Source: Opitutia bacterium (GTDB lineage: Bacteria; Verrucomicrobiota; Verrucomicrobiia; Opitutales; Opitutaceae). From it: 64,000 nucleotides of DNA. Shown here piece by piece: positions 14,899 to 36,689 of this stretch (position 1 is its first letter; every line of letters starts with the position of its first letter). The notes below the pieces were generated by a model. The model did not search any database. It worked only from the letters and a program-made list of their open reading frames with translations, and was not told the DNA's origin. The stretch spans positions 248,001 through 312,000 of the forward strand of contig JACPIT010000001.1 of NCBI GenBank assembly GCA_016187945.1, read 5' to 3'. The position numbers and the translations under genes are program-made.

Positions 14899-14968
14899 GT
14901 AGCGGCGGACTATGATCGCCGGTCGCGCGCGGCACTACGTTCGCCCGGCGGTCATAAACCGCCGCTAC
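14899..14968. repeat. REP-like inverted pair, GTAGCGGCGG family
   Basis: The left unit starts GTAGCGGCGGAC and the right unit is the inverse (GTCATAAACCGCCGCTAC). Each has the GTAG head and a GC hairpin. The pair fills the gap between the Pal terminator and the terminator of the M20 peptidase gene. A third copy of the unit lies inside the YCF48-like gene at 35724. Confidence 0.75.
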
Positions 14969-27588: not shown

Positions 27589-27656
27589 GTAGGGCCAGTC
27601 TGTGACTGGCCCAAACGGTGCGGAGCGGAATGAGGCCGGTCACAGACCGGCCCTAC
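27589..27656. repeat. REP-like inverted pair, GTAGGGCC family, copy 1
   Basis: GTAGGGCCAGTCTGTGACTGG and its inverse CCGGTCACAGACCGGCCCTAC enclose a short spacer. It begins three bases after the stop codon of the DUF4252 gene (read on the minus strand). The same family is inserted inside uvrA at 30641-30748. Confidence 0.9.
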
Positions 27657-28973: not shown

Positions 28974-29050
28974 TGTAGGAGCGGCTTTACGCCGCGATAC
29001 GCTGCGTGGGCGGCATCACGTTCGAATCGCGGCGTAAAGCCGCTCCTACA
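28974..29050. repeat. REP-like inverted pair, family A copy 3
   Basis: TGTAGGAGCGGCTTTACGCC and its perfect inverse enclose 27 bases including GGCATCACGTTCGA. It lies between the lipoprotein gene and uvrA. Confidence 0.93.
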
Positions 29051-29061
29051 GTGCAGGCAGA

Positions 29062-29084
29062 CGCGGGCTGAAGCACCGCGCTAC
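29062..29084. repeat. Single REP-like unit overlapping the uvrA stop codon
   Basis: On the minus strand it reads GTAGCGCGGTGCTTCAGCCC, identical over these 20 bases to the left unit at 26735. The uvrA TAG stop (29081-29083) is the TAG of the GTAG head. Confidence 0.88.
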
Positions 29085-32035
29085 TTTTCGCGACGCCACG
29101 CGCGCAGCGCTTCGCCGGTGAGCGAGCGCGACTCCCCTTCGATGCCGGCGCGCGTGCCGGCGTAGACGATCTCGCCGCCCGCAGGGCCACCGCCGGGGCC
29201 GAGATCGATGAGCCAATCCGCGAGCGCGATCACGTCGAGGTTGTGCTCGATGATCACGACCGTGTTGCCGGCATCGCGTAGCTTGAAGAGCAGGTCCATC
29301 AACCGCTGGATGTCGGTCCAGTGCAGTCCGGTCGTGGGCTCGTCGAGGATGTAGAGCGTGCGCCCTTGCTCGCGTTTGCTCAGCTCGAGCGAGAGCTTCA
29401 AGCGCTGCGCTTCGCCGCCGCTGAGCGTCGTGGCGGATTGGCCGAGCCCGAGGTAACCGAGGCCGACGGCGTCGAGCGTCGCGAGTTTTTCGGTGATGCG
29501 CGGGATGGCGCGAAACAACTCCATCGCTTCGCGCACGGTGAGGTCGAGCACGTCGGCGATGTTCTTGCCGTGGTAGCGCACCTCGAGCGTCTCGCGATTG
29601 AAACGCCGGCCGTCGCAGCTCGGGCACGGCGCAAACGCGTCGGCCATGAACTGCATGTCGAGGCGGATTTGCCCGTCGCCCTGGCAGCGCTCGCAGCGAC
29701 CGCCGCGGACGTTGAAAGAGAAACGGCTCGCCTTGTAGCCGCGCACTTTCGCGAGCGGGAGTTGCGCGAAGAGATCGCGCAGCAAATCGAGCAGGCCGAC
29801 GTAGCTCGCGGGATTCGAGCGCGGGCTGCGACCGATCGGCTCCTGATCGACCTGCACGGTCTTCTCGAAGTGTTCGAGGCCGGCGAGGCCCTTGTGTTTG
29901 CCGGGAAGCGTCTTCGCGCCGTTCAGCTTTCGCGCCGTAGCGGTGGCGAGAATGTCGTTCACGAGCGAGCTCTTGCCCGAGCCGGAAACGCCGGTGACGC
30001 ACGTGAGCAAGCCGACGGGAAAACTCGCGTCGACACTCTTCAAGTTGTGCTCGCTCGCGCCGCGCACGGTCAGCCAACGGCCATCGGGTGCGAGTGTCTT
30101 CGCGTCTTTGGCGACGCCCATTTTCCGCGCGAGATACGGGCCGGTGCGCGAGGCGGACGCGGGGAGTCTCGCGCAATCGGCCGGCGTGCCTTGAAAAAGA
30201 ATCTCGCCGCCCTCGCGGCCGGCGCCGGGGCCGAGTTCGATGAGTTGGTCGGCGATGCGCATCGTGTCCTCGTCGTGCTCGACGACGACCACCGTGTTGC
30301 CGCGGTCGCGCAGGTCGCGGAGTGTGGCGAGGAGTTTCTGGTTGTCGCGCGGGTGCAGGCCGATGCTCGGCTCGTCGAGCACGTAGATGACGCCGACGAG
30401 GCCCATGCCGAGCTGCGTGGCGAGGCGCACGCGCTGCGACTCGCCGCCGGAGAGCGTGCTGTATTCGCGGTCGAGCGTGAGGTAGCCGAGGCCGGTTTCC
30501 TGGAGAAAATGCAGGCGCTGCTCGACGCCTTCGACGACTTCGCGCACGGCCTCGTTGCGCGCGATGAGCGTCGGCGCGACGCCGCGGGTGAACGCGAGCG
30601 CATCGTCGACGTCGAGCGCGGTGAAGTCGGCGTAGCCTAGGTAGCGCCGGTCTTCGACCGGCGAGGTTTGAGGTTGAGCTGGCCTCGCGATTTCGGAAGT
30701 GGCGGACGTTACGCTCGTCGAGCTGGGCCGGTCGGATACCGGCCCTACTTGCACCGCCGCGCTGCGCGGGTTCAGACGCGAGCCGCGGCACGTGGGGCAC
30801 TCACCGCTGACCATGAACGTCGTCAGGCGCGCGCGGAAGCCGTCGCTGTCGGTTTCGCGGAAGCTCTCCATCAGGTCCGCCACGACGCCGGGGAACGGCA
30901 TCGCGCGCGCCTCGCGCATCCGGCGGAGCTTGAAGCTGAACAACCGCTCGTCCGCTCCGTGCAGGATCAGGTCGCGCGTCTCCTCCGGGAGTTTTTTCCA
31001 GGGCACGTCGGGATCGAACGGCAGTTGCTCGGCGAGCTGCTTGAGGAGCGCGTTGTGTTTGATGATGAGATTTTTTCCGCCGATGCGCCACGGCTTGATC
31101 GCGCCCTCGCGCACGGATTTCTCCGGATCGGGGATGACGAGCTCGTCGTTGAAGGTGAGCTTGCGCCCGAGTCCGCCGCAGTCGGGGCACGCGCCTTCCT
31201 TGTGGTTGAAGGAAAAATGCCGCGGCGTGAGCGGCTCGAAGACGTCGCCGCAGACCTCGCACGCGAGATTCTGGCTGAGCGGAATCTCGCGCCACGGCGT
31301 CTCGGCGTTTTTTTGCACGAGCACGAGCGCGCGGCTCTGGCCTTCGCGGAAGGCGAGTTCGAGCGAGTCGGCGACGCGGCTGCGCTGGTCGGCGTTGAGC
31401 ACGACGCGATCGATCACAAGTTCGACGGCGACCTCGGCCGCACCGGTGGGGACGAGACGCGGTTCTTCGAGCGATTTGACCTCGCCATCGATGCGCACGC
31501 GCTGGAAGCCGCGCTGGCGGAGCCGCGGCATCTCGTCGCGCAGGACGGACGGCTTCGCCTTCATGAACGGCGCGAGAATGAGCGCGCGCTCGGCGGGCGC
31601 GTCGCGGAAGAGTTGAGCGATGCAGTCGTCGAGCGAGCGCTTCACGACGCGACCGCCGTCCTTCGGGCAGCGTTGCTCGCCGCAAAGCGACCAGAGCAGG
31701 CGCGCGTAGTCGGCGACTTCGGTCACGGTCGCGACGGTGCTGCGCGGGCCGCCGACGCCGGTGCGTTGCTCGATCGCGAGCACGGGCGAGAGGCCGTGGA
31801 TGAAATCGACGTCGGGCTTCTTGAGTTGCTCGAGGATCTGGCGCGCCTGCGCCGAGAGGCTCTCCATGTATTTCCGGTAGCCCTCGGCATAGAGCGTGTC
31901 GAACGCCAGCGAACTTTTCCCGGAGCCGCTCGGGCCGGTGACGACGACGAGTTTTCCCCGGGGGATGCGCAGCTCGAGATTCCGCAGGTTGTGCTCGCGG
32001 GCTCCCTTGATGTGAATGTGCGGGGCTGCGTCCAT
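29081..32035 (-). CDS. uvrA: Excinuclease ABC subunit A, with an in-frame repeat insertion
   Basis: A 984-residue damage-recognition ATPase of nucleotide excision repair. Walker A motifs are [16 protein letters not shown] near residue 34 and [13 protein letters not shown] in the second half. ABC signatures are [12 protein letters not shown] and [12 protein letters not shown]. Zinc-binding cysteine pairs are in CEVCGDVF...CPDCGGLG and CERCQGDG...CPSCDGRRF. Residues about 430-465 ([10 protein letters not shown] through [10 protein letters not shown]) have no counterpart in standard UvrA, and their DNA is a GTAG-headed REP pair of 108 bases. The TAG stop is supplied by another repeat. The protein is accordingly longer than the usual 940. 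Confidence 0.96.
30641..30748. repeat. REP-like pair inserted in frame within uvrA
   Basis: GTAGCGCCGGTCTTCGACCG (hairpin) at the low end and the inverse-oriented hairpin GGCCGGTCGGATACCGGCC with CTAC at the high end span exactly 108 bases, which is 36 codons. It belongs to the same family as the intergenic pair at 27589-27656. In the uvrA frame the head is read as GTA G, so no stop is created. Confidence 0.85.
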
Positions 32036-35705: not shown

Positions 35706-36689
35706 ATGTCCCCGCTGTTTGCTGTAGCGGCGGTCCGTGACCGCCGACTCACGCGACTCCTCGCCGCGACGTTCACCCTGCTCGCCTCCATTGCGGCAGC
35801 CTGCGCGTTCGCCGCCCCCGCCGAACGCTCCGAGCCTGCCCCACTCGCTGCGAAATCGCTCCTCCTCGACGTCACGAAGGCCGGAGACAACTTCGTCGCC
35901 GTCGGCGATCGCGGCCACGTCCTGATCTCGAGCGACGACGGCAAAACCTGGTCGCAAAGCATCACGCCCACCCGCGCCATGCTCACCTGCGTCAGCTTCG
36001 CCGACGCTCAGCACGGCTGGGCCGCCGGCCACGACGGCGTCATCCTCGCCACGAGCGACGGCGGCATCACCTGGACCCGCCAGGACAACGGCCAGGAACT
36101 CGACACCGTTTACCTCGACCTCCTCTTCACCGACGCCAACCACGGCTTCCTCGTCGGCGCTTACGGCAAATTCCTCGAAACCACCGACGCCGGCAAAACC
36201 TGGACGCCACGCAAAATCTCCGACGAGGACGTCCACTTCAACCGCCTCACGCACGACGGCGCGAACGCCTTCTACCTCGCCGGCGAGAGCGGCACCGTGC
36301 TCATCTCGCACGACGGCTGCCGCACCTGGATGCGCTCGCCGCTCGAATACGAGGGCTCGCTCTACGGCGTGCGCCCGCTCAGCGGCGGCCTCCTCGTCGC
36401 CTACGGCTTGCGCGGCCGCATCTTCGTCTCCACCGACGACGGCGCGTCGTGGCAGCCGCGCGACACCGACATCAAGGTGCTCATCATGTCCGGCACCCGC
36501 CTGCGCGACGGCGTGGTCGTCCTCTCCGGCCAGGGCGGCAATTTCTTCATCAGCCGCGACGCCTGCCGCACTTTTCACCACTGGAAACCCGATGATTTCG
36601 GCACCAGCGTCGCCGACCTGACTGTCGCCACCGACGGCACGCTCATCACCGTCGGCGAGGCCGGCGCGGTTCGCATCAAAATCCCGTGA
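35706..36689 (+). CDS. YCF48-like beta-propeller protein
   Basis: A 327-residue exported protein. A signal-peptide-like segment (LLAATFTLLASIAAACAFAA) follows a basic N-region. Then come repeated propeller blades with Asp-box-like motifs: SSDDGKTW, TSDGGITW, TTDAGKTW, SHDGCRTW, STDDGASW and SRDACRTF. YCF48-type proteins assist assembly of membrane complexes in phototrophs; here it is paired with an RND transporter. Codons for VAAVRDRR at residues 7-14 coincide with a GTAG-headed REP unit. Its TGA overlaps the GTG of the transporter gene. Confidence 0.87.
   Translation: MSPLFAVAAVRDRRLTRLLAATFTLLASIAAACAFAAPAERSEPAPLAAKSLLLDVTKAGDNFVAVGDRGHVLISSDDGKTWSQSITPTRAMLTCVSFADAQHGWAAGHDGVILATSDGGITWTRQDNGQELDTVYLDLLFTDANHGFLVGAYGKFLETTDAGKTWTPRKISDEDVHFNRLTHDGANAFYLAGESGTVLISHDGCRTWMRSPLEYEGSLYGVRPLSGGLLVAYGLRGRIFVSTDDGASWQPRDTDIKVLIMSGTRLRDGVVVLSGQGGNFFISRDACRTFHHWKPDDFGTSVADLTVATDGTLITVGEAGAVRIKIP
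35724..35746. repeat. Single REP-like hairpin inside the YCF48-like gene
   Basis: GTAGCGGCGGTCCGTGACCG continues to CCG at 35746, with stem CGGCGGTC/GACCGCCG. It is a unit of the family at 14899-14968. It encodes part of the basic N-region of the signal peptide. Confidence 0.7.

Follow-up and report, generated by a model that had tools for sequence, protein, structure and literature searches.

The uvrA gene of an Opitutaceae bacterium carries, within its reading frame, a pair of REP-like hairpins. Did a mobile repeat insert into this DNA repair gene, or does a native segment of UvrA merely resemble a repeat? And if a repeat did insert, why is it found at this place in the protein? We analyzed a window of 64,000 nucleotides (the whole stretch of DNA under study), which includes these features:

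29081..32035, minus strand: uvrA, excinuclease ABC subunit A; 984 amino acids, an open reading frame without internal stop that carries the in-frame insert
30641..30748, 108 bases: inverted REP pair (REPIN) in frame in uvrA; codons 430–465, with peptide end SPVEDRRY
30641..30662, plus strand: REP unit with GTAG head and 3-nt loop; the 3' end of the insert, reading along uvrA; 0 mismatches to the pattern; folds on its own
30663..30726: 64-nt spacer between the two REP units
30727..30748, minus strand: REP unit with GTAG head; the 5' end of the insert, reading along uvrA; 0 mismatches to the pattern; folds on its own
27589..27656: intergenic REP pair of the same family as the uvrA insert; matches the same pattern

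The gene exceeds the cut-offs of two UvrA equivalog models, with 1167.6 bits for NF001503 (cut-off 1147) and 1141.7 bits for TIGR00630 (cut-off 729.8). Its best solved relatives are 2r6f and 3uwx, and both ATPase sites are present, with Walker A, signature, and Walker B motifs. Each arm of the insert consists of GTAG, an 8-bp stem, and a short loop, and folds alone. The 22-nt arms are 86% complementary, and the 108-base element as single-stranded DNA has z = -2.77 relative to shuffles. With a GTAG head and a short palindrome in each of two inverted units, the element is a GTAG REP pair, or REPIN. A sequence-only reading had described it as an inverted pair of GTAG-headed hairpins from the family of the intergenic pair, and the coordinates, the arms, and the pattern matches agree with this. 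That reading was also correct that the insert is in frame: by its coordinates it corresponds to codons 430–465, and these 36 codons are read through without a stop. Finally, it had placed the insert in the first ATPase half, ahead of the ABC signature, where standard UvrA has no such residues. The extra residues do follow the CxxC motif and precede the first-half ABC signature, and the stretch from CxxC to GLGY has 106 residues instead of the 72 of the insert-less baseline, for a net gain of 34 residues.

The repeat is abundant in this genome. Searching the 5.47-Mb genome for the pattern of this family, with up to 2 mismatches, gave 205 + 201 matches (406), compared to 8 + 3 (11) in the reversed control; some palindromes were matched on both strands, so there are fewer REP units than pattern matches. 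Within the window, we found 9 matches with up to 3 mismatches, where 0.86 were expected, and none of 100 shuffles reached 9. The element as a whole has 71 matches in the genome, nearly all of which are limited to a REP end. The spacer is spanned by one genome match (C15:26433–26531, 72% identity). The window also contains variant REP units with a GCGGCGGT stem (14947–14968 and 35724–35745) and, directly downstream of uvrA (28975–29049), an inverted pair from a second GTAG repeat family, GTAGGAGCGGCTTTACGCCGCG.

Some of the longer loops in this part of UvrA are rich in proline and alanine and lack palindromes (L003, L007, and L152; see below), as might be expected if the segment were an old UvrA feature or resembled a REP by chance. 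But both arms match a repeat with 406 matches in the genome instead of 11, and the segment is missing from close relatives. In a tree of 145 UvrA genes, built without the insert columns (those occupied in fewer than half of the rows), the window's uvrA is sister to L012 and L013, both of which lack the insert (FastTree local support of 99). The dS between the window's uvrA and these sisters is 0.45–0.48. Across 13 genomes of the same genus, 11 UvrA genes were readable, and 9 of these have no insert. The one gene besides the window's that has an insert (L002) contains a different palindrome. So, the segment is not shared by all relatives, and because it is absent from the nearest ones, the insertion arose on the window's own branch. 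An old native UvrA segment is ruled out by the sisters, and for the window we give next to no credence to a chance resemblance.

To see where these repeats lie, we classified the pattern matches in 840 kb of the genome (contig C1 1–360000 and C2 1–480000) using genes from a home-made gene finder. Among the 65 matches of the insert's own family, 47 are intergenic, 11 are at the edges of predicted genes, and 7 are inside genes, including the window's copy. As expected for REPINs, the family is mostly outside of genes. The second GTAG family has 76 matches, some of them by chance, of which 70 are intergenic, 2 are at an edge, and 4 are inside. Just 6 of the 141 matches, from three elements, look truly in frame and well inside a plausible gene: the uvrA insert (2 matches), C1:203899–203969 (3 matches), and C2:41038 (1 match). 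By appearance, the other 5 of the 11 inside matches are N-terminal extensions or chance matches. The element at C1:203900–203969 (about 3900–3969 of L251) is an own-family REP pair in an Ala/Pro-rich linker of a 479-residue protein, and the element at C2:41039–41060 (1039–1060 of L203) is a single REP of the second family in an 805-residue protein that, by eye, is glycoside hydrolase-like.

How would the repeat have reached uvrA? We found eight matches to Y1 transposases in the genome, and one of these, L363 on contig C15, is a RAYT according to NF047646 (86.5 bits, cut-off 80). The L363 gene has REPs of the insert's own family on both flanks, much as excerpts of PMC8266576 describe for REPtron Sm. 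The window's REP also has the features of REPIN/RAYT systems of groups 2 and 3: a GTAG head, an 8-bp stem, a 3-nt loop, and an inverted pair. Most copies in such systems are intergenic; in contrast, the window's copy is coding, and its host is an Opitutaceae bacterium. We propose that, after the split from the nearest sampled relatives, uvrA received a REPIN of the abundant GTAG family by transposition. The agent would most likely have been a RAYT, such as the REP-flanked gene on contig C15.

To ask what the insertion did to the protein, we compared AlphaFold2 models (pTM 0.68–0.69). In the insert-less L012, strands 429–430 and 433–434 are joined by a two-residue turn, and this block has a pLDDT of 92–94. 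In the window's UvrA, pLDDT drops to less than 50 for residues 434–462 but is 91 in the blocks on either side (before 430 and after 470). As modelled, the insert-less site is a two-residue beta-turn at the surface, and the insert is a disordered loop. The landing site would be this beta-hairpin turn in the first ATPase half, just past the CPxC motif, and with a stop-free frame the inserted sequence could have become a disordered loop of about 36 residues. The earlier suggestion that such insertions might be a route to new protein loops holds as a description, but we saw no sign that the loop gained a function.

We then surveyed UvrA across the Opitutaceae. The 150 loci are not a random sample: L001–L030 are the best full-length matches, and L081–L200 are 120 of the 126 further rows among the matches listed (252 genomes). 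The stretch from CxxC to GLGY could be parsed by motif in 145 of the 150 loci; L192 and L193 were read by eye, and L029, L030, and L135 were unusable. This stretch usually has 72 residues, but among the matches listed, it is longer by 11 to 90 residues in 42 of the 145 Opitutaceae genes (11/28 in the first set and 31/117 in the second). Adding L193, which has an insert, and L192, which does not, at least 11 extra residues are present at the turn in 43 of the 147 readable Opitutaceae UvrA among the matches listed. In-frame REPs had been called unusual, and this is accurate for the genome (6 of 141 matches in 840 kb) but not for this site (43 of 147 UvrA in the family).

In an alignment with 954 consensus columns, the extra residues of all 42 insert genes fall at columns 431–435. 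Other inserts of at least 8 residues are rare: four of the 145 sequences have one at columns 245–250, there is one each at columns 18, 456, and 948, and five sequences have C-terminal extensions. Columns 245–250 are the sole other internal place with several inserts among the 145 UvrA. By eye, the inserts there (L010, L128, L011, and L006) are palindrome pairs, three with GTAG heads and one with GTGG heads, and they fall in a loop between the modelled strands 235–241 and 249–254. At the turn in the second half (YHGKNI), which we take as homologous by sequence, the alignment has no insert of at least 8 residues; this fits with tolerance only if the second-half turn is constrained.

When the presence or absence of an insert at the first-half turn is mapped onto the tree, at least 22 changes (gains or losses) are required. 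In some lineages, a later insert may have replaced an older one, so 22 changes should not be equated with 22 transpositions. We also examined a double-length UvrA paralog in 20 genomes (L261–L280; open frames of 1889–2278 amino acids). It has inserts of at least 10 residues at 13 internal positions, not at one turn. Peptides in this paralog such as SQPSTLNSQP and ARASRPQ resemble repeat translations.

The inserts at the turn are of several kinds. By eye, there are about a dozen types of GTAG or GTGG palindrome, along with five palindromes of heptamer repeats and some Pro/Ala-rich loops. Inverted repeats beyond those in shuffled sequences are present in 27 of the 42 inserts at p ≤ 0.05 (about 2 would be expected by chance), and in 19 of them at p ≤ 0.005. 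The 15 inserts with no inverted repeat beyond shuffles are either eroded repeats or insertions of another origin. Sister species can have different repeats, as in L114 versus L122, L005/L148 versus L151 versus L160, and L082 versus L083. The heptamer palindromes are in L109, L151, L181, L167, and L006; to our knowledge, they do not belong to any named mobile family.

For four of the repeats, including the window's own (406 matches), we counted matches in host genomes. The palindrome of L005 has 30 matches in G014, 39 in G117, 1 in G118, 6 in G119, and 0 in the window's genome (G000), and the L114/L011 type has 32 in G099, 111 in G036, 10 in G106, 56 in G135, and 1 in G000, with 0 in the control in each case. 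The heptamer type of L109 has 279 matches in G105, 78 in G103, 10 in G000, 3 in G118, 0 in G018, and 0 in the control, with tandem heptamers counted in several registers per array. A repeat-rich genome can stay insert-free: G098 has 53 matches of the L114 type, yet its uvrA (L106) has no insert. Within 20 kb of uvrA, 4 of 20 neighborhoods had matches to their insert (L004, L002, L167, and L010, where the match is only to its own local duplication), versus 2 of 20 in the reversed control, a sample too small to be decisive. The uvrA of L010 has a 12-residue tandem duplication (LDIEAAHEFARR) close to the REP insert.

Is the turn also used outside of the Opitutaceae? In a sample of 115 genomes from the phylum, 11 of which are in the family, we read the table by eye and found no row outside the family that is split at the turn, although some net spans are up to about 13 codons longer; partial or paralog-only rows are uninformative. 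The first half was readable in 65 of 80 UvrA loci from named genomes. These include 15 records from Verrucomicrobia/Opitutia (L281–L295), partly from the same contigs as the family loci (L281 is L002). Among the 50 readable loci outside Verrucomicrobia/Opitutia, the turn is 28 residues longer in L317, from a Spirochaetaceae MAG, and 8 residues longer in L340 (Mycobacterium), and L335 is longer elsewhere. The L317 insert on its own does not stand out from shuffles (p = 0.10), but a 21-nt palindrome from this insert has 45 matches in its own genome and 0 in the control.

The concentration of inserts at one turn could reflect where transposases land. Eight GTAG inserts start at the identical codon, which could hint that the transposases prefer the DNA sequence at the turn, so that the hotspot would be due to target choice instead of selective tolerance. 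IS608-type enzymes pick their sites via guide tetranucleotides, a role that GTAG might play for REPs (excerpts of PMC8266576). However, the repeats at this turn belong to different families, some of which (the heptamer palindromes) have no GTAG head, and the spirochete has yet another repeat there. Also, genes without an insert contain on average 3.4 in-frame copies of GTN-GG, yet only 6 of these 95 genes have one at the turn. Given no excess of GTN-GG at the turn, we rejected a DNA target motif there, and we consider target choice to be unlikely. Instead, we suggest that selection purges nearly all other coding insertions and that a tolerant turn keeps repeats from many genomes.

Another possibility is that the inserts are adaptive, either because they alter the activity of UvrA or because they regulate uvrA at the DNA or RNA level. 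PMC3733652 speculates about mutator effects of REPs in repair genes, and its survey includes many REP-tagged genes for DNA synthesis and repair, a pattern that it doubts is fortuitous. Also, many lineages keep an insert. But in our tests, UvrA has not lost constraint. The dN/dS between the window's uvrA (L001) and L012 is 0.10, and it is 0.03–0.14 across all 14 pairs computed, with inserts or not. With L016 as the outgroup, the window's branch is no faster than its sister's (22 unique changes versus 23 for L012). In 16 relative-rate comparisons with a threshold of 3.84, the row with the insert was faster in one (L083) and slower in three (L126, L004, and L081). The Walker A, signature, and Walker B motifs of both halves, scored by alignment position so that the halves are told apart, are unbroken in 38–42 of the 42 insert genes, depending on the motif, and the rest are cut off; so the motifs are intact wherever they can be read. 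Thus, uvrA is under purifying selection despite the insert, and its activity is probably unchanged. The dN/dS values, the relative rates, and the intact motifs give no support to loss of UvrA function or to a mutator.

The inserted peptides themselves are unlike between sister species, which also argues against an adaptive role. In the orthologous inserts of L155 and L181, pN is 0.116 and pS is 0.118 (10 and 4 differences), while the dN/dS of the gene is 0.04. The inserts of L005 and L148 differ by only 2 bases. In the one informative pair, with its 14 differences, the insert peptide appears to evolve without amino-acid constraint. Overall, an adaptive role for the inserts seems even less likely than target choice. 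We also consider it unlikely that the turn serves as a landing place across phyla where repeats are kept because the longer loop, or a DNA or RNA hairpin in uvrA, benefits either repeat or host. One such benefit could be a safe harbor, in which REP families persist because the gene is indispensable.

Taken together, we think it quite probable that a REPIN of the GTAG family transposed in frame into uvrA, that the turn tolerates a linker, and that the repeats of many genomes accumulate there independently.

Rickettsia palindromic elements (RPEs) are another example of in-frame insertions in protein genes. Like the uvrA inserts, they are short palindromes in frame in the genes of likely functional proteins (excerpts of PMC3733652). 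RPEs are other repeats (CGTC or longer types), and according to the abstract of PMC3733652, they apparently lack a dedicated transposase. Unlike the RPEs, the repeats described here come from many families and share a single turn of a single protein.

Locus L010, the uvrA of genome G015, has repeat pairs both at the turn and at columns 245–250. G015 is presumably O. terrae PB90-1, and the two inserts of L010 would fit the published double insertion. PMC3733652 (2013) reports REPs within genes of many kinds; Opitutus terrae has the highest number of GTAG cases, which include both of its uvrA genes. These are in-frame GTAG REP dimers in uvrA from the same bacterial family as our window, whose insert is a further instance of published intragenic REPs in uvrA. 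In contrast to our results, the excerpts do not mention REP families converging on one turn of UvrA: the REPs in the uvrA genes of O. terrae are "at different sites," and the one same-site case that is named is recB of Xanthomonas. Among open PMC papers, we found no report of convergence on one turn, of a cross-phylum case, or of selection tests.

With mobile repeats of many kinds at this turn of UvrA, nature has in effect tested, more than once, where a conserved DNA repair machine accommodates new sequence. The inserts range from fresh repeats to eroded loops, and they date REP activity lineage by lineage. They also open to direct testing the question from 2013 of whether a REP in a repair gene is harmful, beneficial, or neutral. 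Finally, the turn is a candidate permissive site for tagging UvrA.
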